64,000 nucleotides of DNA. It comes from Chryseobacterium sp. MEBOG06. Lineage in GTDB: Bacteria; Bacteroidota; Bacteroidia; Flavobacteriales; Weeksellaceae. The stretch spans positions 1,612,001 to 1,676,000 of the forward strand of contig NZ_CP084580.1 of NCBI RefSeq assembly GCF_021869765.1, in the 5' to 3' direction. The notes beneath the pieces are model-generated. The model searched no databases. It worked only from the letters and a program-made list of their open reading frames with translations, and was not told the origin of the DNA. Of the stretch, positions 852 through 63,106 are shown one piece after another. Position 1 is the stretch's first letter. Each line of letters opens with the position of its first letter. The translations under genes were made by a program, and so were the position numbers.

Positions 852-2138
852 TTATTTCACGATAAGCTTTTTCGTTTCCGAACTGCCTCCGTAAGTGATT
901 TTTACAAGGTAATTACCTGAAGTAAGATGTGATAGGTTCAGATCTTGTTTGTAGAACCCAGCCTGGTTAGACAGTTCCGCGGAATAAACCTGCTTACCGG
1001 TAAGGTCATAAACTTCCACATTACCTTTATTGCCTGCTTTTTGTTTTACATCAAACAATACGGTAACATGTTTGTCAGAAGTTGTTGGATTAGGATAGAT
1101 TCCGAAGCTTGCATTTTTACCTACCTCAGTGATACCTAATGTTTCAGTAATTTTTTTGTATTTGAAATACATATTTCCTGTAGTGGCTCCTCCGTTGGTT
1201 GTGAAGTACATTCTGTAGTAATCACTTCCTTTTTTAACGTAGTATACTACATCGTTTTTTACTGTTCCAATCCCTTTCCAGGAGTGCCCTACAGTTGTTA
1301 TAGCAGATGAGAAAGCGGTACTTGCAGGTATGCTGTACGCAGCTGTCTGCTGTGTTTCCGGCTGTACCATGGCAACTTTGATATTTGGACTTTGAATAGC
1401 TCCTGAAAGAGGATACATCTGAAGACCATTGTAAAAAGTATAATATTTTGTAAATACCAGATCCCAGGCATTTTTGGAAGGTTCCATATTAGGAACTTTT
1501 GCTCCGGTGTCGAATGAGAAATAATTAAAGAAGGCATCATCAGTTCCGTTGGTAATTGTTCTGGTCTCCGTTTGCCCCCAGGTACTTCCGTTCCATTTAG
1601 AATACTTAAATGTATAACCTGCAAATGCGTCTAAAATTGCAAATTTGATATAGGCTCCGTTTGAGTATTTTAAAACAAAAATTGCTTTTCCATCAATATG
1701 ATGATTTAATGTATTGTATACTCCCCATCCTGTTGCCGGAAGAAATGGATCAGTAATCGGTCCCTGTTCGAAGGCTCCCTGACTCAAATCTGTTGTCTGA
1801 TCCGGGTTATAAAGAGGTGCTCCCCAAGAAGATTCATTACTTATACTGATAGTATCCCAGTCTGCCAGATTGGTTGAAGCTGCATATACTTCAATATCTT
1901 TAGCATCATTAATTCTTGATCCAAATGCAAAGTTTGAATTTCTATAAAAAGCAACATCCCATGTATTAGCAGGCTGAGGAACCATATTACCATCTTCCAG
2001 ATTAACAAATACACGGTTTTGGTATCCGCTTCCCATAGACATATTTACTTGTGTATACCCTAATGCATCAGTTTGCGCTAAAACAGTCTGCTGAACCGTT
2101 AGAGCAAGCATCGAAGCCAAAAATAGTTTTGTTTTCAT
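852..2138 (-). CDS. HmuY-like secreted protein with T9SS type A sorting domain
   Basis: A 428-residue protein with a clear signal peptide (MKTKLFLASMLALTVQQTVLAQ). The middle resembles the HmuY haem-binding family: it has the recurring tryptophan-rich strands seen in that family (NTWDVAFYRN near residue 60, NAWDLVFTKYY near 225) and a late VVYYVKKGSDYYRMYFT segment. From about residue 345 it ends in a T9SS type A sorting domain (GIYPNPT, VYDLTGKQVY, GNYLVKITYGG, KKLIVK), so it should cross the outer membrane through the type IX machinery and be released or anchored at the surface. Its promoter carries the same palindromic block as the next gene and the divergent haem operon. The HmuY relationship is from pattern recognition; haem binding is inferred. 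Confidence 0.78.
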   Translation of the reverse strand: MKTKLFLASMLALTVQQTVLAQTDALGYTQVNMSMGSGYQNRVFVNLEDGNMVPQPANTWDVAFYRNSNFAFGSRINDAKDIEVYAASTNLADWDTISISNESSWGAPLYNPDQTTDLSQGAFEQGPITDPFLPATGWGVYNTLNHHIDGKAIFVLKYSNGAYIKFAILDAFAGYTFKYSKWNGSTWGQTETRTITNGTDDAFFNYFSFDTGAKVPNMEPSKNAWDLVFTKYYTFYNGLQMYPLSGAIQSPNIKVAMVQPETQQTAAYSIPASTAFSSAITTVGHSWKGIGTVKNDVVYYVKKGSDYYRMYFTTNGGATTGNMYFKYKKITETLGITEVGKNASFGIYPNPTTSDKHVTVLFDVKQKAGNKGNVEVYDLTGKQVYSAELSNQAGFYKQDLNLSHLTSGNYLVKITYGGSSETKKLIVK

Positions 2139-2161
2139 AATTTAATTTTTTTGAATCCTTA

Positions 2162-2211
2162 TTTAGAATTATTCTACAAAAGTATATAATTATTTTTAAT
2201 CAGTCTAAATA
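2162..2211 (-). promoter_or_regulatory. Promoter with candidate iron/haem operator, copy 1
   Basis: On the minus strand a perfect Bacteroidota -7 element (TACTTTTG, plus coordinates 2177-2184) is followed directly by the 13-bp palindrome TAGAATAATTCTA (2164-2176), with an upstream half site TTTAGACTG (about 2202-2209). The whole block recurs at 3223-3273. Its form, an inverted repeat around one central base, resembles Fur-type operators, but Fur control is inference. Confidence 0.6.
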
Positions 2212-2334
2212 AAAACATGATTTTTGTCGTGTTCACTTTTGATATAAAGTTTTCGGGGAGAATAAATAAGTGTTAATCATCATTCTTACCACTGGTTATT
2301 ATTATGATAGCGGCAGGACTATCTTTTCATAAAA

Positions 2335-2365
2335 AAAGCCGGCTGGAAATCTTCCAGCCGGCTTT
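2335..2365 (-). terminator. Rho-independent terminator of the T9SS jelly-roll gene
   Basis: A perfect 14-bp stem, 2335-2348 with 2352-2365, closed by a 3-base loop. Seven A residues on the plus strand (2331-2337) give the U tract of the minus-strand transcript. It sits just after the stop of the gene at 2394-3209. Confidence 0.9.
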
Positions 2366-2393
2366 ATAAAGGTATATGATTGTGTAATAAACC

Positions 2394-3209
2394 TTATTTT
2401 TTGATGAACTTAGATTGTACTACTGATCCCTCTGCAGTTTCAATAAGAACATAATAAACTCCGGTTTGAAGTGTACTGATGTCAAATCTTTGTCCATTAA
2501 GCTTCCCTTCTGTAGCTTTCTGCCCGGTAGCAGAGTAGATCTGGATATTTTTTGGCGCTTTTGCTGTAACAAATTCCAATGCCGTGTTCTCTGAATTAAC
2601 AGCAAATTGCAAAGCATTTTTCGTTTTAACATGATCAGAAACACCTAGTGTACCGCTGGCAGCAGTTAATACTACATCATCCATACGCAATGCCACGTGG
2701 ACTGTAGATGCTGTGAACTTGAATGCGATATATTGGTATGAAGACTGTTGTACATTGAAAGTTGTCGTAGCATCTGTACTTGATGTAAGGTTTACAGTAG
2801 TTCCGATAGGAGTAAAAGTAGACATATCTGAAGGGCTTGCTACAAGACCAACTTCAAGAGTACCCGTTCCTCCTGGCGTACCACCAATAAGAGCCGAAGT
2901 GAATGATAAAGTCTGAGTACCATTTGGAGCAACAATTTGTGGAGTTATCAAATAAAATGCCTTACTTCCTGCAAAAAATGAATAAGCCTGAACAAAATTG
3001 TTCCCAGTTCCCGGTTCTACTGTAAGCATTGGTACCCAGCTAGGATTAGCAGGATTAGATGAAGCAGGAATTACTGTACTCCATCCATTTTGAGGTAATG
3101 ATGCCGTACCGGTAGTGAAAGAACTGAAAGTTTCATTTATTGAAGATACTTGTGCATTTGCTGTGAAAGCCGTAAACATTAATGTTCCTAAAAGTAGTTT
3201 TAATTTCAT
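2394..3209 (-). CDS. Secreted choice-of-anchor J-like protein with T9SS type A sorting domain
   Basis: A 271-residue protein with a signal peptide ending at about ANA-QV. Residues 25-185 form one beta-rich domain of the choice-of-anchor J/cleaved-adhesin kind: INETFSS near the start, SWVPML, AFYLITPQI, and the closing MDDVVL strand. Residues from about 195 form the T9SS sorting domain (IQIYSATGQKA, LQTGVYYVLIETAEG, VQSKFIKK). Cleaved-adhesin domains of gingipains bind haemoglobin and other host proteins (family knowledge). A role in capturing haemoproteins is my inference from that and from the shared operator with the haem uptake operon. It is 256 bp upstream of the HmuY-like secreted gene, with its own promoter and terminator. 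Confidence 0.75.
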   Translation of the reverse strand: MKLKLLLGTLMFTAFTANAQVSSINETFSSFTTGTASLPQNGWSTVIPASSNPANPSWVPMLTVEPGTGNNFVQAYSFFAGSKAFYLITPQIVAPNGTQTLSFTSALIGGTPGGTGTLEVGLVASPSDMSTFTPIGTTVNLTSSTDATTTFNVQQSSYQYIAFKFTASTVHVALRMDDVVLTAASGTLGVSDHVKTKNALQFAVNSENTALEFVTAKAPKNIQIYSATGQKATEGKLNGQRFDISTLQTGVYYVLIETAEGSVVQSKFIKK

Positions 3210-3222
3210 GACATTATTTTTA

Positions 3223-3286
3223 TTTAGAATTATTCTACAAAAATAAGTATTAATTTTTAACTATTCTAAATAAAGCATTATATTTG
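3223..3286. promoter_or_regulatory. Divergent promoter region with candidate iron/haem operator, copy 2
   Basis: For the leftward gene the -7 element is TATTTTTG (plus 3238-3245), followed by the palindrome TAGAATAATTCTA (3225-3237). For the rightward receptor gene the -7 element is TATATTTG at 3279-3286, with the half site ATTCTAAAT (3263-3271) just upstream. The block copies the one at 2162-2211, so one regulator could control both arms of the locus. Confidence 0.6.
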
Positions 3287-3302: not shown

Positions 3303-5417
3303 ATGAAGAAGAAGGTGCTTTCCGTTCTATCATTATCCATAGTATTATGGATGAGTGCACAAGAAAAAGATTCTCTTAATCAGAAGAAAATAGAAGAAGT
3401 TGTCGTTACAGGGCAATATACCCAGCAATCTATTAATAAATCTATTTATAAAGTTGAAGTAGTTGATGCAGAACAAATTAAAAGAATGGCTGCCACCAAT
3501 GTAGCCGACGTTCTGAATCAAAGCTTAAATATTCTTATCACATCAGATCGTAACTCAGGTAATTCTACGGCAAGTCTTATGGGACTAGGTGGAGAATATA
3601 CTAAAATTCTGGTAGATAATATTCCTATCGTTGGAGATATAGGTCTAGGAAATAATATAGATCTTACAAAACTGAATGTAAATAATGTTGAACGTATTGA
3701 AATTGTAAGAGGCTCCATGGGAGTAGATTACGGAAGTAATGCAGTAGCAGGGGTTATTAATATTATTACCAAAAAGAATAGCACCAAAAAGTTGACCCTC
3801 AATGCTTCTGTACAGGAAGAAACGGTAGGTAAAGAGTATGATTTTTATAAAAAAGGAGAAGGAAGACATATACAAACATTGAACATAGGGTATAATATTG
3901 ATGAACACTGGTATGTAGGGGCAAATATTAATCATAATGATTTTCAGGGATTCAAAGGAACTCAGGAAGGATATAAATATTTTGGACAAGATAAAAAAAG
4001 AGGATATCTGTGGCAGCCTAAAGACGTATTGAATGTTGATGGTATTGTACGATACAGTAAAAATAAAACGTCCATATTCTATAAATTCGGTTTTGTCAGC
4101 GAAAAGCTGAACTATTATAATCCAATTGTTGGAGAACTTTATTTAGGCGAAGGAAACAGAACTTATGTTTCTACAGACAGAGATTACCTTACTACAAGAT
4201 ATGTGAATCAGCTTAATGTTCAGACGAAGTTAGGGGCGATCAATTATACCGGAGATTTTTCTTATCAGACTCAGGACAGAAAATACAGAGATTTCACCTA
4301 TGACGTTCCAAAACGTGAGGTAAGAGGTGATAAGAATGAGTACCAGTCATACAACAAAGCAGATATTATTTATTCAAGAGGAGTTTTCAGTAATTTCCTT
4401 GATAATGATAAAATTGATTTCCAGTTAGGATACGAATTAGATCATACTTCAGGTTATGCAGGATCTATTGCAGGAAGTTTTGCCGGAAATAATGTGACCA
4501 GAAAAATATTCAACTATGCAAATTTCATTTCTGCGGAGTGGAATGCAAACAAATGGTTATCCATTCGTCCCGGTTACCGTCTTGCACTTAGTGATAAATT
4601 TGATACCCAGCATAACTACTCCTTAACGGTGAGAGGAAAGGCTAATGAAACTACGAATATCCGTTTGGTAGTAGGAAGTGCAAACCGGTTTCCAAATTTT
4701 GACGAACTGTATACTTATTTCGTAGATAGTAATCATGATATCCGGGGAAATGAAAATTTAAAACCTGAGGAAGGATTTACAGCTTCATTAAATGCAGACA
4801 AAAGGTTTAATGCAATCTCCGGATGGAATTTCAAAGTGGGAGCGAGTGCTACTTACATGAAGCTTAAAAACAGGATTGAAGAATTAATCGTTAATCAGCA
4901 GCCATTACAATATAAATATATCAATATAGATAAGTTTAAATCTTATTTATTTGAGGCCAACTTTAGTGCTCAGAAAGATCAGTTCACTTTAGCTGCCAAT
5001 GCATCTTATTATGGAATTTCAAAAGAATTGTCTTCAGGTGCAGTAAAATCACCAACTGACTTTTTCTATACTTTTGAAGGGAAAGTTGCCGGAAGCTATA
5101 CTTTACCAAAAGTCAATACCAATTTCTCATTGTTTTACAGATATGTAGGGAAACTTCAAATGTTCGTTCTTGTTCCGGACCTTGCAAACCCTTACTATGA
5201 AGTAGGAGAAAGAGGAAACTTCAATATGATGGACTTTATTGTTTCACAACCTTTCTTCAACAGGCATCTTGAAGTAAGTGCAGGTGTTAAAAATATTTTT
5301 GATGTATCATCTGTGAGAGATAGTACAGTTGCCGGTACTGCTCACGGTGCTGCAGATCCAACTTCTAATTTATTCTATGGCAGAAGTTACTTTGCCAGAT
5401 TAAGTTATAACTTCTAA
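3303..5417 (+). CDS. TonB-dependent outer-membrane receptor, probable haem receptor (HmuR-like)
   Basis: A 704-residue protein with a signal peptide (cleavage near SAQEKD), a TonB-box-like KIEEVVVTGQYT at about 30-41, and a plug domain to about residue 160 containing VADVLNQSLNI, ILVDNIPIVGD and VERIEIVRGSMGVDYGSNAVAGVINIITKK. A 22-strand barrel follows, ending in aromatic SYFARLSYNF as expected for BAM recognition. It lacks the N-terminal CarboxypepD-like extension of SusC proteins, so it belongs with the siderophore/haem/B12 type. It is the first gene of a rightward run with HmuY, a haem ABC importer and a haem-handling protein, which is why haem is the likely ligand. The gap to the next gene is 10 bp. 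Confidence 0.88.
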   Translation: MKKKVLSVLSLSIVLWMSAQEKDSLNQKKIEEVVVTGQYTQQSINKSIYKVEVVDAEQIKRMAATNVADVLNQSLNILITSDRNSGNSTASLMGLGGEYTKILVDNIPIVGDIGLGNNIDLTKLNVNNVERIEIVRGSMGVDYGSNAVAGVINIITKKNSTKKLTLNASVQEETVGKEYDFYKKGEGRHIQTLNIGYNIDEHWYVGANINHNDFQGFKGTQEGYKYFGQDKKRGYLWQPKDVLNVDGIVRYSKNKTSIFYKFGFVSEKLNYYNPIVGELYLGEGNRTYVSTDRDYLTTRYVNQLNVQTKLGAINYTGDFSYQTQDRKYRDFTYDVPKREVRGDKNEYQSYNKADIIYSRGVFSNFLDNDKIDFQLGYELDHTSGYAGSIAGSFAGNNVTRKIFNYANFISAEWNANKWLSIRPGYRLALSDKFDTQHNYSLTVRGKANETTNIRLVVGSANRFPNFDELYTYFVDSNHDIRGNENLKPEEGFTASLNADKRFNAISGWNFKVGASATYMKLKNRIEELIVNQQPLQYKYINIDKFKSYLFEANFSAQKDQFTLAANASYYGISKELSSGAVKSPTDFFYTFEGKVAGSYTLPKVNTNFSLFYRYVGKLQMFVLVPDLANPYYEVGERGNFNMMDFIVSQPFFNRHLEVSAGVKNIFDVSSVRDSTVAGTAHGAADPTSNLFYGRSYFARLSYNF

Positions 5418-5427
5418 AATCTAAAAA

Positions 5428-6513
5428 ATGAAAAAAATACTGGTTTATCTTTTACTAGGAGCGTCATTTATTTCTCAATCTTGCATCAATGATAATGAAG
5501 ATCCGATAGCAATATCTAAGACGGATGGCTACGTTGTTGACCCTGCCGTAGGAGGACCCAGCCAGCCTAATCAGGTTTGGTTTGATTTGGGTACAAATAC
5601 TCAGATGGTTACTAAAAGAACAGACTGGGACCTTGGCTTTTATTCAGGAAGTGAATTTAAAGTTATTCTCAATCCATCAATTATGATGGGAGCTGGAAAA
5701 ATTGCCAATGCAACCAATATAGATTTAGTTAAAGAATCAGATGTTACTGCCTTAATGAACCAGGTACAGGTAGCCAATTATAATCCTGCCAATATTAGCT
5801 ATATTGATGATGTTACCGGAAATTTCCCATCTGGTTATACTGCCATAGAAGAGATTAAGGTGATCGATGCTGATAACCCTGTTTATTTAGTTAATATGGG
5901 TAAAAATATTTTTACAGGTACAGTTCCGTTAGGTACAGTTACTACAGGAGGAGACAGCAGAGGCTGGATGAAAGTACAGGTAGTAAGACAGGGAGATGCT
6001 TATAAAGTAAAATATGCAGAACTTAATTCTACAACGCATACTGAAGTGGTGATTAATAAAAACTCAGCATATAATTACAGCTTTTACAGCTTAAAAAATA
6101 AAACAACAGTTACTGTACAGCCGGAGAAGAAAAATTGGGATATTTGTTTCTCTGTATTTGTTAATTCAATCGCAGGAGCAGGTAGTTATATTTATGCAGA
6201 TTTTACAACGATTAATAACCTTGGTGGAGTTGGAGCTTATGAAGTGAAAGTAACTGCACCTACAACAGGAGCAGCTGCATTTACCAATTTTAAACTTTCA
6301 GATATTGATAAATCAAAATTTGTTTATAAAGATCAGCGGGTGATTGGTGGCAACTGGAGAGAAGTAGGACCGGATGGATATCAGGTAAAAGGTGATGTTT
6401 TCTACGTAATTAAAGATGCAGAAGGGTATTATTTCAAGTTAAGATTTACCAGATTAACCAACGAAAAGGGAGAGCGTGGATTCCCGCAGTTTGAATACAA
6501 ACCTTTATTTTAA
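5428..6513 (+). CDS. hmuY: HmuY-family haem-binding lipoprotein
   Basis: A 361-residue exported protein with a lipobox-like end to its signal sequence (FISQSC, Cys near 19), so probably an outer-membrane lipoprotein. The body carries features of the HmuY family: QVWFDLGTNTQ...RTDWDLGFYSG, repeated later as KKNWDICFSVFVNS, and the C-terminal GDVFYVIKDAEGYYFKLRFT. HmuY proteins take haem from host haemoproteins and pass it to the partner TonB receptor, which lies immediately upstream here. It is longer than Porphyromonas HmuY. The methionine and histidine haem ligands cannot be assigned by eye. The next gene, the binding protein, begins 30 bp downstream. Confidence 0.85.
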   Translation: MKKILVYLLLGASFISQSCINDNEDPIAISKTDGYVVDPAVGGPSQPNQVWFDLGTNTQMVTKRTDWDLGFYSGSEFKVILNPSIMMGAGKIANATNIDLVKESDVTALMNQVQVANYNPANISYIDDVTGNFPSGYTAIEEIKVIDADNPVYLVNMGKNIFTGTVPLGTVTTGGDSRGWMKVQVVRQGDAYKVKYAELNSTTHTEVVINKNSAYNYSFYSLKNKTTVTVQPEKKNWDICFSVFVNSIAGAGSYIYADFTTINNLGGVGAYEVKVTAPTTGAAAFTNFKLSDIDKSKFVYKDQRVIGGNWREVGPDGYQVKGDVFYVIKDAEGYYFKLRFTRLTNEKGERGFPQFEYKPLF

Positions 6514-6543: not shown

Positions 6544-7422
6544 ATGAAAAAATTCATTCTTGCAGCCTCTGTTCTTGTAGCAGTATACTCTTGCAAAAAA
6601 GCAGAAGGCACAGCAAAAGAAAATACAACAGAAGCAGCTTCGGAAGCGCCGAAAAGCAACAATAAAATTGTAACATTAAACGGTGGAATTACCGAGATCG
6701 TAAGCGCTTTGGGCCACGAAAAAGAAATCGTTGGAACAGACGTTACCAGTACTTATCCTGCCTCTTTAAAGACTACAGCAAAAGATTTGGGACACGTAAG
6801 ATCAATGACCATTGAACCTATTATGGCGGTAAGCCCTACTTTGATTCTTGCTTCTGATAAAGATATCAATCCTGAATTATTAGGTAAAATAAAGTCTTCA
6901 GGGATTAAAGTTGACGTTTTTAAACAGGAATACACTGTTGACGGGACCAAAAAATTAATCGAAGAAGTTGCGAAAGCCCTTGGAAATACTGAATATCAGA
7001 AATTAAATGATAAAATTGACGCAGACCTTAAACAGGTTCAGCCAATTGCTAAAAAGCCGAAAGTATTATTCATCTATGCCAGAGGTAATATGCTGATGGT
7101 ATCAGGTAAAAATACACCTATGGCATCATTGATCACCCTTGCAGGTGGAGAAAATGCAGTAAATGATTTCGAAGATTTCAAACCATTAACTCCTGAAGCA
7201 GTTGTAAAAGCTAATCCAGATGTATTATTCTTCTTTGAAACAGGCCTTCAGGGAGCTGGAGGAAACGAAGGCGCCCTTAAAATGCCGGGAGTTTCCCAGA
7301 CCAACGCAGGGAAAAATAAAAAGATCATCGCAATGGATGGAGGTTTAGTATCAGGTTTCGGACCTAGACTAGGAGAAGCAGCAGTAGGATTAAACAAACT
7401 TTTAATTGAAAACGCAAAGTAA
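6544..7422 (+). CDS. hmuT: Haem ABC transporter substrate-binding protein
   Basis: A 292-residue lipoprotein: the signal ends at VYSC (Cys17) and a Ser/Glu/Lys-rich linker follows. The rest is a helical-backbone periplasmic binding protein of the TroA/FhuD class: IVTLNGGITEIVSALGHEKEIVGTD, then the VSPTLILASD strand, KKPKVLFIYARGN starting the second lobe, and PEAVVKANPDVLFFFETG. This matches HmuT haem-binding proteins of ABC importers. The last 17 bases overlap the start of the permease gene, so translation is probably coupled. Confidence 0.88.
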   Translation: MKKFILAASVLVAVYSCKKAEGTAKENTTEAASEAPKSNNKIVTLNGGITEIVSALGHEKEIVGTDVTSTYPASLKTTAKDLGHVRSMTIEPIMAVSPTLILASDKDINPELLGKIKSSGIKVDVFKQEYTVDGTKKLIEEVAKALGNTEYQKLNDKIDADLKQVQPIAKKPKVLFIYARGNMLMVSGKNTPMASLITLAGGENAVNDFEDFKPLTPEAVVKANPDVLFFFETGLQGAGGNEGALKMPGVSQTNAGKNKKIIAMDGGLVSGFGPRLGEAAVGLNKLLIENAK

Positions 7423-8446
7423 ACTATACTTTTATCTTATTATAAGTGCCATATTGCTGGTTATTCTGGCAGTGGTGGCACTTTATATTGGGGTCTATGA
7501 TTTTAATGGTGTTTCGCCGTTTACGGTTTTAAGCCAGTTTATTAAAGGAGATCCCGCTCTGTCATTGAGTGATAAATATGTTATATGGGAAGTAAGAACT
7601 TCCAGAATTATTATGGCCATTCTGATAGGAAGTATGCTTGCCGTTTCCGGGACTACACTGCAGGGACTTTTTAAAAACCCACTGGCAACAGGAGAGGCAA
7701 TCGGGTTAACATCAGGAGCAACACTATTGGCTGCATTTGCTATTGTTTTGGGAGGGCATTTTAAAGAGTATCTTCCTGAAATTGTACAATTCTCATTAGT
7801 AGGTATTTCTGCTTTTATAGGAGCTTTACTGGCGATGATGCTGGTGTACAGGATCTCTACCAGTGCAGGAAAAACAAATGTTGTCATGATGCTGTTAAGT
7901 GGTGTTGCCATTACTTCTATCGGCTTCTCTATTACAGGATTTCTTATTTATATTTCAAAAGATGAACAATTGAGAGATCTTTCATTCTGGAATATGGGAA
8001 GTCTTGCAGCAGCTACCTGGACCAAAAATATCGTTTTGGCAGTAGTCATTGTCATTTCTTACACCGTCCTGCTCCCAAAAGGAAAGGCACTCAATGCAAT
8101 GATGCTGGGTGAAAAAGATGCTCAGCATTTAGGAATTAATGTAGAAAGACTGAAAAAGCAGATCGTAATTATTACCTCTTTGATGATAGGAACCTGTGTG
8201 GCATTTTCAGGAACTATTGGATTTGTGGGTCTTATTGTACCTTATATTTTAAGACTTTTATTTAAATCCAATTATGTGTTTATATTACCATTGTCAGCAG
8301 TTCTGGGCAGTATTTTACTTTTGATTGCCGACACTATCAGCAGAAGTATTGTGGCACCTTCAGAACTTCCTATTGGTATTCTGACCTCTTTGATCGGAGG
8401 ACCTATTTTTATTGCTATTTTAATTAAATTTAAAAAATCACTCTAA
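7406..8446 (+). CDS. hmuU: Haem ABC transporter permease, FecCD family (TTG start)
   Basis: A 346-residue permease with about ten membrane segments. Family motifs are WEVRTSRIIMAILIGSMLAVSGTTLQGLFKNPLA, the ATGEAIGLTSGA segment, GTIGFVGLIVPYILRLL and ELPIGILTSLIGGPIFIAIL. The start must be TTG at 7406: an in-frame TAA stands immediately before it, and the next in-frame ATG is near codon 69, which would remove the first membrane helix. The start lies inside the end of the binding-protein gene, and the stop overlaps the ATG of the ATPase gene by one base. It is the membrane channel of the haem importer. Confidence 0.9.
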   Translation: MKTQSKLYFYLIISAILLVILAVVALYIGVYDFNGVSPFTVLSQFIKGDPALSLSDKYVIWEVRTSRIIMAILIGSMLAVSGTTLQGLFKNPLATGEAIGLTSGATLLAAFAIVLGGHFKEYLPEIVQFSLVGISAFIGALLAMMLVYRISTSAGKTNVVMMLLSGVAITSIGFSITGFLIYISKDEQLRDLSFWNMGSLAAATWTKNIVLAVVIVISYTVLLPKGKALNAMMLGEKDAQHLGINVERLKKQIVIITSLMIGTCVAFSGTIGFVGLIVPYILRLLFKSNYVFILPLSAVLGSILLLIADTISRSIVAPSELPIGILTSLIGGPIFIAILIKFKKSL

Positions 8447-9219
8447 TGATTAAAGCACATCAGATCAATTACCATCACCGGAATTTTAAAATTCTGGATA
8501 GTGTTGATGTCTCTTTAGATTACGGTGAATTTTTAGCAATCGTAGGACCAAATGGAGCAGGAAAATCAAGTCTTCTGAGCATTTTGGCAAATGAGGTAAA
8601 AGATGGTAAATCTAAAATACTATTTAAAGATAAACCTATCGGAGATTGGGAAGTGAGAGAATTGTCTCAGCATAAAGCTAAGTTTTCCCAGCACAATTCC
8701 AATGAAATTCCTTTACAGGTAAAAGATGTTGTCATGATGGGAAGGTATCCGTATTTTGATGCCCAGCCCGGAAAAGAAGATCTTGAAGCCATGAACAATA
8801 TGATGTATGAAACCGATATTTTTCATTTGAAAGAAAGGGAATATAACACCCTTTCAGGAGGAGAAAAACAGCGTGTACATCTTTCAAGAGTAATGGCTCA
8901 GCTGCAGAATGAGATCACCCACAAATTAGTTTTTTTGGATGAACCTTTGAATAATCTTGATATAAAACATCAGTACAAAGCACTGGAGATCATTAAGAAC
9001 TTTACTAAAAAAGCCAACAGTGCTATTGTTGTTCTGCATGATCTGAATCTTGCCGCACAGTTTGCAGATAAGATTTTATTAATGAAATCAGGAAAAGTTT
9101 CTGCCTATGGAACCCCGGAGGAAGTGTTTACTGCAGATAATATCAGCAAAGCGTATAACTTTCCATGTACCATATGCGGACATCCTATTACTAATAACCC
9201 AATGATCATTTTTGGATAA
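8446..9219 (+). CDS. hmuV: Haem ABC transporter ATP-binding protein
   Basis: A 257-residue ABC ATPase. The Walker A is GPNGAGKSS (about residues 33-41), the Q-loop segment is KAKFSQHN, the signature is LSGGEKQRVHLSRVMAQ, the Walker B is LVFLDEPLNNLD, and the switch histidine is in VVLHDLNLAAQFADKILLM. These are the usual motifs of FepC/HmuV-type importers. Start and stop are firm: ATG overlaps the permease stop (TAATG), and the methyltransferase begins 2 bp after its own stop. It energises haem import across the inner membrane. Confidence 0.92.
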   Translation: MIKAHQINYHHRNFKILDSVDVSLDYGEFLAIVGPNGAGKSSLLSILANEVKDGKSKILFKDKPIGDWEVRELSQHKAKFSQHNSNEIPLQVKDVVMMGRYPYFDAQPGKEDLEAMNNMMYETDIFHLKEREYNTLSGGEKQRVHLSRVMAQLQNEITHKLVFLDEPLNNLDIKHQYKALEIIKNFTKKANSAIVVLHDLNLAAQFADKILLMKSGKVSAYGTPEEVFTADNISKAYNFPCTICGHPITNNPMIIFG

Positions 9220-9221
9220 CC

Positions 9222-9872
9222 ATGGAAAAAGAAGAACTAAAAATCCTTGCACAGAATCTTGCCAATCCTCAGGGTGATAAAGGTATTGAGATCGGTGAAA
9301 TGATGAATGCCACTAACATCGGAATGACGTTAGAAAGTATCAGAACACTTCTGATTGAAGACAATGAACATATTCTTGAAATAGGTCACGGAAATGCAGG
9401 CCATCTGAAAAATATTTTAAAATTAGCCGCCAATTTGAAATATACAGGAATTGATGTTTCCGAAACAATGTATAACGAAGCCAGAAAATTGAATAAGGAA
9501 TTCAGCAGCCAGGCAGACTTTATATTGTATGAAGGAACAAAACTCCCTTTTGAAAATGAAGTATTTGATAAGATATTTACAGTCAATACCGTCTATTTCT
9601 GGGAAAATCCAGTAGATTTTTTAAATGAAGTTTACAGAGTTTTGAAGGATGACGGAACTTTCGTTCTTACTTTCGGACAAAGAGAATTCATGGAGAAATT
9701 ACCATTTACAGAATACGATTTTACATTGTATCATAATAATGAAATGGAAGAGCTGGTCTCTAAAACTCATTTTAAAAGAATGAAAATCTCTGAAAAGGAA
9801 GAAAATATAAAAAGTAAAACCGGAAACGAAACAATACATAGAATTTATACAGTTTTAACCATAAAAAAATAA
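9222..9872 (+). CDS. Class I SAM-dependent methyltransferase in the haem operon
   Basis: A 216-residue Rossmann-fold methyltransferase. Motif I is ILEIGHGNAGHL (about 49-60), the acidic end of strand 2 is YTGIDVSETMYNEA, motif II is FDKIFTVNTVYFWENP, and VYRVLKDDGTFVLTFG follows. This places it in the Methyltransf_11/25 group. The substrate is not visible. It sits 2 bp after the importer ATPase and 4 bp before the HmuS-like gene, so it is translated as part of the haem operon. Modification of haem, a haem breakdown product or a metallophore are possibilities, all inferred from position alone. Confidence 0.85.
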   Translation: MEKEELKILAQNLANPQGDKGIEIGEMMNATNIGMTLESIRTLLIEDNEHILEIGHGNAGHLKNILKLAANLKYTGIDVSETMYNEARKLNKEFSSQADFILYEGTKLPFENEVFDKIFTVNTVYFWENPVDFLNEVYRVLKDDGTFVLTFGQREFMEKLPFTEYDFTLYHNNEMEELVSKTHFKRMKISEKEENIKSKTGNETIHRIYTVLTIKK

Positions 9873-9876
9873 AATA

Positions 9877-10905
9877 ATGAGCACATTAGTTAATGATTTA
9901 AAGGAGAAATGGGAAGCTCTGAAAGCAGAAAATCCACATATAAGAATAAGAAATGCTGCCGCACAGTTAGAAGTAAGTGAGGCAGAATTGTTAGCAACAA
10001 GCATAGGTGATGGAGTAATTGTCCTGAACCCGGATTTTCAAGGTATCCTTACTGAAGCCGGGCAATTAGGAAAAGTAATGGCTCTTACACGTAATGATGA
10101 ATGTGTTCATGAAAGAAAAGGAACTTACCTGAACGGAGATTTCAGCAGCCCTCATGCACAGCTTTTCGTAGGTGAAGATATCGATCTTAGAATTTTCCTT
10201 AACCACTGGAAATTTGCTTTTGCAGTAGTAGAAGGAGATAAGAAAAGTCTTCAGTTTTTCGGTAAAGACGGATTAGCTCTTCACAAAATTTACCTTACAA
10301 AAGAAAGTATCGGAGAAGTTTTTGATACCATCGTGGAAAAATTCAGGGCAGAAGATCAGAATCAGGTATTGACCTTTGAAGCTGTAGCTCCAAAGCAGGC
10401 AGAAAAAGCAGATGCTGATATTGATGTTGAAGGATTCAAAAAAGCATGGACAGAACTGAAAGATACTCACGACTTCTTTATGATGACAAGAAAATTCGGA
10501 GTAAGCAGAACTCAGGCATTAAGATTAGCTCCGGAAGGATTCGCTAAGAAAATTGATAATGCAAAAGTGGTAAACGTTCTTGAAGATGCTTCTGAAAAAA
10601 ATACACCTATCATGGTTTTTGTAGGAAACAGAGGTATTATTCAGATCCACACCGGAAATGTAAAGAAAACACTTTGGCATCAGCAGTGGTTCAATGTAAT
10701 GGATCCGGATTTCAACCTGCATTTGGATGTAACAAAGATTGCAGAAGCATGGATCGTTAAAAAACCAACTGAAGACGGTGAAGTAACAGCTATTGAAGTA
10801 TTCAATAACGAAGGTGACTTTATTGTTCAGTTTTTTGGGAAAAGAAAACCAGGAATTCCTGAACTTCAGGAATGGAAAGATCTTGTTGCTGCGTTAGAGC
10901 AATAA
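9877..10905 (+). CDS. hmuS: HmuS/HemS-family haemin-handling (haemin-degrading) protein
   Basis: A 342-residue cytoplasmic protein built from two similar halves, as in HemS/ChuS/HmuS: the first about 20-165 and the second about 185-335. It begins with VNDLKEKWEALKAENPHIRIRNAAAQLEVSEAELLAT, the standard family start, echoed by EGFKKAWTELKDTHDFFMMTRKFGVSRTQALRLA in the second half. NDECVHERKGTY holds the likely proximal histidine, and TLWHQQWFNVMDPDFNLHLD is the conserved late motif. Family members bind haem after import and either pass it on or release iron. It is the last gene of the tight run; a terminator follows at 10926. Confidence 0.9.
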   Translation: MSTLVNDLKEKWEALKAENPHIRIRNAAAQLEVSEAELLATSIGDGVIVLNPDFQGILTEAGQLGKVMALTRNDECVHERKGTYLNGDFSSPHAQLFVGEDIDLRIFLNHWKFAFAVVEGDKKSLQFFGKDGLALHKIYLTKESIGEVFDTIVEKFRAEDQNQVLTFEAVAPKQAEKADADIDVEGFKKAWTELKDTHDFFMMTRKFGVSRTQALRLAPEGFAKKIDNAKVVNVLEDASEKNTPIMVFVGNRGIIQIHTGNVKKTLWHQQWFNVMDPDFNLHLDVTKIAEAWIVKKPTEDGEVTAIEVFNNEGDFIVQFFGKRKPGIPELQEWKDLVAALEQ

Positions 10906-11060: not shown

Positions 11061-11933
11061 ATGAAGAATATTTTCATAATGATTCTGCTGGCAGGTTTCT
11101 GTACTTTCAATGCACAGGATTTTAAAGCTTACCAGTTTTATGATAAGAAAGGAAAGGAAGTAAAGACAGATAAACTGATTAAGGAACTGGCTGATTATGA
11201 TGTGGTCTTTTTTGGTGAAAATCATAACAGTTCTATCAATCACTGGCTGCAGCTGAAAATTACAGAGGCATTATACGAAAAGAAAAACGGTCAGCTTATT
11301 TTAGGAGCAGAAATGTTTGAAAGAGACAACCAGCCTCAGCTCAATCAGTATCTGAATGGGAAATTTGATGCTAAAACATTCAAAGATTCTGCCCGTTTAT
11401 GGAACAATTATGCTACAGACTATAAACCTCTGGTAGATTTTGCAAAAGATAAAAAGTTAAACTTTATTGCAACGAATATTCCAAGAAAATATGCTTCACA
11501 GACCTCAAAAGAAGGACTTGAATCATTAAATAAACTTACCGATAAAGAGAAAACATATATTGCACAATTGCCTATTAAAGTCACTTTAGATACCCCCGGA
11601 TATCCGGAAATGAAAAAAATGATGGACGACCATGCAGAAGGAACAAAAGTGATGAATTTTATTTCTGCACAGGCAACGAAAGATGCAACCATGGCAGAAT
11701 CTATCCTGAAAAACTTCCAGGCTGGAAAAACTTTTATCCATTATAACGGAAACTATCACAGCAAAGAATTCGGAGGAATTTACTGGTATATCAAACAGAA
11801 AAACCCAAATCTTAAAATGGCAGTAATTTCTGTTTTTGAAGCTGAAGATCCAACATTGAAAGTACCTGCAAAAGACTATATCCCGACAGATTTTAATCTG
11901 ATTATTCCAGCTGATATGACAAAGACTTTTTAA
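11061..11933 (+). CDS. ChaN-family (TIKI superfamily) iron-regulated exported protein
   Basis: A 290-residue protein with a signal sequence probably cleaved near FNAQ-DF. The ChaN/haem-uptake signature is clear: DYDVVFFGENHNSSINHWLQLKITEAL (about 48-75), EMFERDNQP, LWNNYATDYKPLVDFAKDKKLNFIATNIPRKYA, and FIHYNGNYHSKEFGGIYWYIKQ near the end. ChaN from Campylobacter binds haem as a dimer and is iron regulated; related TIKI-fold proteins are metalloproteases. The conserved E/H pairs are present. It is separated from the haem operon by a terminator but points the same way, so it probably extends the haem function from its own promoter. I saw no copy of the palindromic operator upstream. Confidence 0.82.
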   Translation: MKNIFIMILLAGFCTFNAQDFKAYQFYDKKGKEVKTDKLIKELADYDVVFFGENHNSSINHWLQLKITEALYEKKNGQLILGAEMFERDNQPQLNQYLNGKFDAKTFKDSARLWNNYATDYKPLVDFAKDKKLNFIATNIPRKYASQTSKEGLESLNKLTDKEKTYIAQLPIKVTLDTPGYPEMKKMMDDHAEGTKVMNFISAQATKDATMAESILKNFQAGKTFIHYNGNYHSKEFGGIYWYIKQKNPNLKMAVISVFEAEDPTLKVPAKDYIPTDFNLIIPADMTKTF

Positions 11934-63012: not shown

Positions 63013-63047
63013 CCTGATTAGTTATTGTTAATAATCTCTCAATCAGG
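63013..63047 (-). promoter_or_regulatory. Riboswitch expression platform hairpin
   Basis: AATCAGG (plus 63013-63019 as cctgatt) pairs with CCTGATT (plus 63041-63047 as aatcagg). The first arm ends 6 bases before the ATG and may hold the ribosome site. The second arm shares its CC with the aptamer, so folding of one competes with the other. Confidence 0.55.
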
Positions 63048-63095
63048 CGTCATCAGCTTTTGAAAAGCGGTTGGGTAAGGAAGAACACCATTTCC
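63045..63095 (-). ncRNA. Fluoride riboswitch (crcB motif)
   Basis: Read on the minus strand, the leader contains GGAAATGGTGTTCTTCC, then AACCGC, a short GCTTTT/AAAAGC hairpin, and GCTGATGACGCCT. This is the order and consensus of the crcB motif: P1 GGAA/UUCC, the GGUGU segment that pairs with ACGCC near the 3' end (one G-U pair), and the conserved CUGAUGA block. It stands about 40 bases before the CLC gene, directly after a TATATTTG -7 element (plus 63107-63114). Confidence 0.88.
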
Positions 63096-63106
63096 TTTTG
63101 ATAGCA

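Follow-up and report, generated by a model that had tools for sequence, protein, structure and literature searches.

The haem-uptake (hmu) locus of Chryseobacterium sp. MEBOG06 (Weeksellaceae, Flavobacteriales) encodes two HmuY-family proteins beside one TonB-dependent receptor, HmuR. One is a lipoprotein HmuY encoded directly downstream of hmuR. The other, termed P1, is encoded divergently from hmuR and is, by its sequence, a member of the HmuY family with a type IX secretion system (T9SS) sorting tail and without the lipid-anchor cysteine found in the adjoining HmuY. The locus is contained in a 64,000-nucleotide stretch (NZ_CP084580.1, positions 1,612,001 to 1,676,000; assembly GCF_021869765.1), referred to below as the window, which belongs to a single-contig genome of 5.29 Mb. 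A second T9SS-sorted gene, P2, is located between P1 and hmuR (Table 1). The favoured explanation, held with moderate confidence, is that P1 captures haem extracellularly and hands it to HmuR and the lipoprotein HmuY, is co-regulated with them by Fur, and acts as a supplier for different receptor sets.

The sorting tail of P1 exceeds the curated cut-offs of both TIGR04183 (58.5 bits, cut-off 23) and PF18962 (55.6 bits, cut-off 27), as does that of P2 (37.7 and 28.5 bits, respectively). The two leftward T9SS-sorted genes described in an earlier sequence-only reading of the window were thus recovered as open reading frames (ORFs) in the same places and with recognisable tails. The T9SS translocon, the search for which was limited to SprA, is represented in the genome by this protein (2054 bits). 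A signal peptide can be read by eye in P1, and cysteine is absent from the first 30 P1 residues in all 80 near loci, which represent the best 80 of 210 relatives. A loose lipobox pattern fits the signal peptides of none of these 80 proteins and of three of the 20 order-level P1 relatives described below (L182, L189 and L191).

The resemblance of P1 to HmuY, which the sequence-only reading had also claimed, is borne out by profile kinship with both HmuY lipoproteins and solved HmuY chains. Residues 1-331 of P1 align with residues 1-362 of the HmuY lipoproteins in profile-profile comparison (probability 97.1, E 7.5e-11), and the comparison with order-wide P1 relatives gives E 4.1e-20 over 166 columns. 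Among solved structures, the HmuY-family chains 8b6a (E 3.3e-6) and 3h8t (E 9.8e-5) are hit by the order-wide P1 profile (A4); neither was reached when the near-relative profile (A1) alone was compared with the PDB. In a six-frame search, the first half of P1 matches the HmuY model PF14064 with 30.3 bits (cut-off 27), and this model is matched by five of 23 aligned near P1 sequences and by nine of the ten order-level P1 proteins scanned. The AlphaFold model of P1 is of moderate quality (pLDDT 70.4), and the Foldseek and VIA-align lists for the whole model are occupied by the sorting domain, with no chain named HmuY displayed. As the first half of P1 aligns with the second half of the HmuY lipoprotein (probability 90.6, E 1.3e-6) and the latter protein matches PF14064 twice, P1 and the lipoprotein each likely comprise two tandem HmuY units. 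The halves within each protein match only weakly (probability 25.4 and 8.9), which argues against this two-unit architecture. In locus L106 (10001-11292), P1 is broken by stops, with two TGA and one TAA codons within a like match in the six-frame search of genome G128; the hmu genes are still present.

Relatives of P1 occur in 79 of 197 genomes of the family at an E-value no higher than 1.3e-76, with fragmented copies in a few, and in 63 of 296 genomes of the order (E 1e-20). Twenty-six of the latter lie outside the family of the window, and 20 of these provided the order-level loci. A divergent HmuR is encoded within 10 kb of P1 in all 80 near loci, and in 79 of them P1 and HmuR are separated by at most P2 and gaps of 0.75 kb. 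The exception is L051 (1112-10001), where ~8 kb separates P1 from P2-hmuR. Seven of the 80 loci contain P1 directly beside hmuR without P2, at a spacing of 98-391 bp. Among 20 distant loci of the family, HmuR and a lipoprotein HmuY adjoin P1 in 18, are found ~8 kb away in one and are both absent in another (L145). The P1-like gene in L145 (9149-10450, + strand) is the second copy of its genome and has no hmu neighbours within the stretch fetched. At the level of the order, an HmuR relative is encoded within 1.5 kb of P1 in 18 of the 20 loci, and the placement of a T9SS-sorted HmuY beside the receptor is therefore an order-wide arrangement. A lipoprotein HmuY occurs between P1 and HmuR in L173, a 1.4-kb gap is present in L182 and the P1 gene runs into the contig end in L191, while L174 (6966-8270, + strand) encodes a T9SS-HmuY without an HmuR relative in its 15-kb stretch. 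In L166 (8563-9873, - strand), from the genus group of the Riemerella-like genome G047, a T9SS-tailed HmuY relative is located beside a 930-aa TonB receptor and a 406-aa lipoprotein-like gene.

Residue H146 of P1, the codon of which is at window positions 1701-1703, is a candidate haem ligand. It lies in the motif GWGxY....H..G..IFVLK, ahead of a strand, and is kept in 107 of 108 copies overall (68/68 near, 19/20 distant family and 20/20 order-level copies). The count excludes the more distant T9SS-HmuY of L166, which occurs beside another receptor kind and lacks H146. The sole counted copy without this residue is that of L145, which has no hmu neighbours. The copy in L174, by contrast, keeps H146 without HmuR in the stretch. 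Four other residues, H147, H285, M310 and M323, were rejected as candidates; they are near-invariant within the genus, yet are not kept in distant P1 relatives. Chained alignments place H146 in the same loop as the HmuY ligand H166, in a different column and with uncertain register. The HmuY lipoproteins of 68 loci contain no histidine kept at 95% or above, and a methionine, M87, is invariant. Published HmuY proteins with histidine ligands are described, in the available portion of PMC12106395, as favouring haem binding under oxidising conditions, and those with methionine ligands under reducing conditions. By analogy, P1 (His) and the lipoprotein HmuY (Met) may divide their labour along redox lines.

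A copy of ATTTAGAATTATTCTACAA is located before P1 and another in the 93-bp gap that separates P2 from hmuR, and in both places a second box lies 31 bp further along. This supports the sequence-only reading, in which the leftward and rightward genes were thought to have a control sequence in common. The sequence matches the Riemerella Fur box ATTTAGAATTATTCTAAAT, and in the available part of that study Fur bound the hmuR promoter in an electrophoretic mobility shift assay (EMSA; PMC5609570). Table 4 of the same paper gives a 6.7- to 7.9-fold increase for the receptor, hmuY and the divergent gene at low iron and a 2.3- to 2.6-fold increase for the same three genes in a fur mutant supplied with iron, with low-iron induction persisting in the mutant. 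The available text of a second Riemerella study is concordant on the iron response (PMC5429918). Across the near loci, a box with at least 15 of 18 positions matching is found within 150 nt upstream of P1 in 80/80, of P2 in 68/73 and of hmuR in 76/80 loci. The corresponding background is 72/4000 for 150-nt pieces drawn at random from these loci without masking the true boxes, and 14/3200 for shuffled upstream regions. An element with the presumed consensus TAnnTTTG occurs within 100 nt upstream of P1 in 79/80, of P2 in 69/73 and of hmuR in 76/80 loci (random pieces 252/4000). With up to one mismatch, TTTAGAATNATTCTAAA occurs at four places in the genome, two of which are the boxes of this locus. 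The third near-perfect box (L004 1501-1517) precedes a 402-aa membrane protein, presumably PepSY-like, which represents another possible Fur target, and the fourth (L005) precedes a ligase-like gene. When up to three mismatches are allowed, the own-genome scan yields 266 boxes against 217 in the control, which amounts to noise. Three Fur-family matches are present in the genome. With paired Fur-box-like sites at all three promoters, low iron likely switches on P1, P2 and the hmu operon together.

The exchange of components was analysed in 68 loci in which all eight proteins are near full length, comprising the window and 67 of the 80 near loci (L106 was left out). Mean distances are 0.126 for the periplasmic binding protein (PBP), 0.140 for FecCD, 0.157 for the ATPase and 0.112 for HemS, as compared to 0.273 for P1, 0.345 for HmuR, 0.408 for HmuY and 0.434 for P2. 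With the flank signal removed, the distances correlate at 0.88 for HmuR-HmuY, 0.35 for P1-HmuR, 0.38 for P2-HmuR and 0.16 for P1-P2. Between L085 and L086, the flank diverges by 0.6% and P1 by 3.9%, against 42.4% in HmuR, 51.5% in HmuY and 44.8% in P2. Near the hmuY stop, DNA identity declines from ~95% to 56-63%, and it is regained within the P2 tail domain; a conserved island consisting of the hmuR 5' end and promoter is present within the divergent block. Among 69 close pairs (flank distance <0.05), the P2 jelly roll is more than 30% different in 21 of the 22 pairs whose HmuR barrels differ and in three of the 47 whose barrels are the same, while the first unit of P1 differs to this extent in 5/69 pairs and the second unit in 0/69. 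These pairs share loci, and when the count was repeated with disjoint pairs (flank distance <0.08), P2 was more than 30% different in 12/16 different-class and 4/21 same-class pairs, and P1 in none. The four HmuR classes were delimited at a distance of 0.35, a threshold set by choice, and compared on quick trees. The number of class changes is 23 on the tree of the flank (28.9 on average after shuffling), 20 on that of P1, 19 on that of P2, five on that of HmuY and three on that of HmuR itself. On the basis of these distance, pair and tree counts, the receptor and lipoprotein HmuY travel together, often accompanied by the P2 outer domain in recent exchanges, and P1 mostly does not travel with them. 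The histidine of the haem-receptor-like box of HmuR, the meaning of which is assumed here, is kept in 68/68 loci and in every receptor class, so that a change of ligand is not indicated.

The pattern suggests that HmuR, the lipoprotein HmuY and often the P2 outer domain likely move as a block between species by recombination. Fast point change without exchange would be a very improbable source of the divergence. Surface proteins do often evolve fast, and constraint could account for the island of conservation at the hmuR 5' end and promoter, but the near-identical flanks of L085 and L086, the fall and recovery of identity and the recurrence of HmuR classes across the flank tree all argue against it. 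As the receptor, HmuY and often the P2 outer domain are probably swapped while P1 mostly stays, P1 is likely a haem supplier for varied receptor sets. Three observations weigh against this role. P1 tracks the receptor about as much as P2 does across the whole set of loci; the mean P1 distance of the disjoint pairs is higher where the HmuR class differs (0.166) than where it is the same (0.101); and hmmscan of the whole window P1 does not list HmuY (PF14064), so that the profile check proposed in the sequence-only reading succeeded in the six-frame search alone. It is also conceivable, though unlikely, that P1 stays anchored to the surface via the T9SS and only stores or sinks haem or porphyrin, as protection or as a pigment-like deposit, with no handover to HmuR. 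The frequent changes of HmuR class on the P1 tree relative to the HmuY tree would fit such a sink, as would the binding of the porphyrin ring without iron coordination by some HmuY proteins (available text of PMC12106395). The proximity of HmuR in the order-level loci, the common Fur-box layout and the residual P1-HmuR correlation argue instead for P1 as a supplier.

The sequence-only reading regarded P2 as cleaved-adhesin-like, which holds for its predicted fold but not for its family profile. The best VIA-align matches of the P2 jelly roll are the cleaved-adhesin domains K1-K3 of the gingipain Kgp (4itc, 3km5 and 3m1h), with MAM and CBM4 nearly as close. PF07675 is not listed for the window P2 and is reached by one of 24 aligned P2 sequences (E 0.025), and P2 is therefore not filed in the gingipain cleaved-adhesin family; some longer P2 relatives carry PF07675 in precomputed annotation. 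P2 is present in 73 of the 80 near loci, from Chryseobacterium, Epilithonimonas and one Weeksellaceae metagenome-assembled genome. In 40 more distant loci its outer domain is without a match, the single match being to the tail of one protein. By this distribution P2 is a local addition to the locus. P1 and P2 as an inseparable pair are ruled out by the seven loci without P2 and by the distant loci, and the two secreted partners do not form a fixed capture module as originally proposed, given the order-wide occurrence of P1. In L085 (8487-8982) the hmuR-P2 gap is ~0.5 kb, against the usual ~0.1 kb, and contains small ORFs of up to 69 aa; L081, L084 and L086 are alike.

P2 is likely an accessory surface adhesin of jelly-roll fold, with a target near the receptor that may be haemoglobin, a glycan or another surface. 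The narrower proposal that it resembles the gingipain haemagglutinin domains and brings haemoglobin to P1 and HmuR is doubtful; unlike Kgp K1-K3, P2 is not joined to a protease, besides the profile and fold differences given above. There is a greater chance, if still somewhat below even, that P2 is an unrelated T9SS adhesin carried along beside hmuR by linkage. Judged by their names, T9SS proteins of the 'Choice-of-anchor J' type are frequent in the genus, and the differing tract spans hmuY through P2, so that linkage alone could explain its co-movement. The Fur-box-like site upstream of P2 in most of its loci, however, argues against this reading.

Table 1. Features of the hmu locus, with positions in the window.
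Feature	Position	Strand	Remarks
P1: HmuY-family protein, T9SS type A tail	852..2138	-	428 aa; ORF and profile evidence
T9SS C-terminal sorting domain of P1, residues 347-427	858..1100	-	PF18962 E 6.5e-15; TIGR04183 58.5 bits
Fur-box-like site before P1, ATTTAGAATTATTCTACAA	2161..2179		like the Riemerella Fur box (available part of PMC5609570)
TAnnTTTG element before P1, TACTTTTG	2177..2184	-	
Second Fur-box-like site before P1, ATTTTTAATCAGTCTAAAT	2192..2210		
Hairpin 3' of P2, likely terminator between P2 and P1	2335..2365	-	arms 14 bp, 100% complementary, T-run
P2: jelly-roll (cleaved-adhesin/MAM/CBM4-like) protein, T9SS type A tail	2394..3209	-	271 aa
T9SS C-terminal sorting domain of P2, residues 212-271	2397..2576	-	TIGR04183 37.7 bits
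Fur-box-like site common to P2 and hmuR, ATTTAGAATTATTCTACAA	3222..3240		
TAnnTTTG element before P2, TATTTTTG	3238..3245	-	
Second Fur-box-like site common to P2 and hmuR, ATTTTTAACTATTCTAAAT	3253..3271		
TAnnTTTG element before hmuR, TATATTTG	3279..3286	+	
HmuR: TonB-dependent receptor	3303..5417	+	plug PF07715; haem-receptor-like box with H478
HmuY lipoprotein (Cys19), likely two HmuY units	5428..6513	+	PF14064 86.9 bits, E 2e-24
PBP (Peripla_BP_2)	6544..7422	+	PF01497
FecCD-type permease	7406..8446	+	PF01032
Haem ABC ATPase	8446..9219	+	PRK13548 276.3 bits, cut-off 261
Methyltransferase	9222..9872	+	PF08241
HemS/ChuX-type haem-degrading or carrier protein	9877..10905	+	PF05171 E 1.6e-73
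ChaN-type haem-binding family protein	11061..11933	+	PF04187 E 1.1e-64

The rightward genes include the receptor, HmuY and ATP-binding cassette (ABC) transporter of the operon anticipated in the sequence-only reading, but the presumed HmuS is of the HemS/ChuX kind. The locus continues with PBP, FecCD, ATPase, methyltransferase, HemS and ChaN, and does not contain the CobN-like HmuS and HmuTUV that characterise the hmuYRSTUV operon of Porphyromonas and Bacteroides. No family model that HmuR matches above its cut-off names the receptor haem-specific. An inverted repeat with T-runs at 785-815, read by eye in the interval separating P1 from the gene at 485-775, is likely a shared terminator. Elsewhere in the window, a fluoride riboswitch (RF01734, 50.3 bits) is located at 63037-63104 (- strand).

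Several parts of the arrangement have precedents in other taxa. In Flavobacterium columnare, C6N29_01035 resembles P1 in combining a HmuY domain with a type A sorting tail; it is described as T9SS-secreted, and its deletion caused no growth defect (available text of PMC9618737). In this comparison, made by protein alone, P1 differs in adjoining a receptor, a lipoprotein HmuY, an ABC transporter, HemS and a second T9SS gene. The hmuY of Prevotella intermedia likewise adjoins a T9SS type A gene, with low-iron induction of 116- and 104-fold; as far as the available text of PMC10434189 goes, the T9SS protein is not called HmuY and the locus carries hmuY only, the rest of the operon being absent. 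These two precedents weaken the novelty seen in the sequence-only reading in the juxtaposition of HmuY and adhesin. A figure legend on Hmu loci in PMC12106395, a source likewise available in part, also names a T9SS gene. HmuY of Porphyromonas gingivalis likewise adjoins its TonB haem receptor (available portions of PMC12106395 and PMC10434189); unlike hmuSTUV there, the present locus contains a second, T9SS-sorted HmuY, and a FecCD-type ABC transporter and HemS replace the CobN-like HmuS and HmuTUV. In Flavobacterium psychrophilum, HfpR and HfpY similarly combine a TonB receptor with a HmuY-like haemophore that binds haem 1:1, but the available text of PMC9331221 describes just two hmu genes and mentions no T9SS HmuY. 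The RhuR/RhuA locus of Riemerella anatipestifer likewise contains a divergent promoter with the same, EMSA-tested Fur box (available text of PMC5609570, PMC5429918 and PMC10986502). It differs in that the divergent gene of G047, which alone among 320 family genomes contains the published EMSA primer, encodes a 298-aa protein without a recognisable sorting tail, and in its HmuY of 210 aa. This gene (L165 7073-7969, + strand) presumably encodes a DUF6607-like protein. The iron-regulated RAYM_06185/B739_1415, divergent from Riemerella hmuR, was rejected as a P1 or P2 orthologue, as by eye the 298-aa product resembles neither. Searches of open-licence PMC papers turned up neither an order-wide coupling of T9SS-sorted HmuY with lipoprotein HmuY at a single receptor, nor the H146 motif, nor exchange of the cassette.

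In the proposed mechanism, Fur would leave the promoters at low iron, turning on P1, P2 and the operon. P1 would be exported by the T9SS, pick up haem outside the cell and deliver it to the HmuY-HmuR pair, while P2 may keep some target close to the receptor. Judging from their families, the TonB receptor and the PBP-FecCD-ATPase transporter would import the haem and HemS would free the iron. More tentatively, Flavobacteriales may possess a two-carrier system in which the T9SS HmuY with its near-invariant GWGxY-H motif is the common supplier, and the receptor, lipoprotein HmuY and, in Chryseobacterium, the adhesin form a cassette traded between species, with phages, bacteriocins or the type of haem protein available as drivers of the exchange. 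If P1 does act as a supplier, a large group of environmental and opportunistic bacteria would employ two HmuY proteins with two delivery routes, the lipoprotein being matched to the receptor and the T9SS-exported HmuY being less bound to receptor type. The natural receptor swaps among close species would then provide ready tests of which part sets specificity and why the receptor is traded as a cassette.

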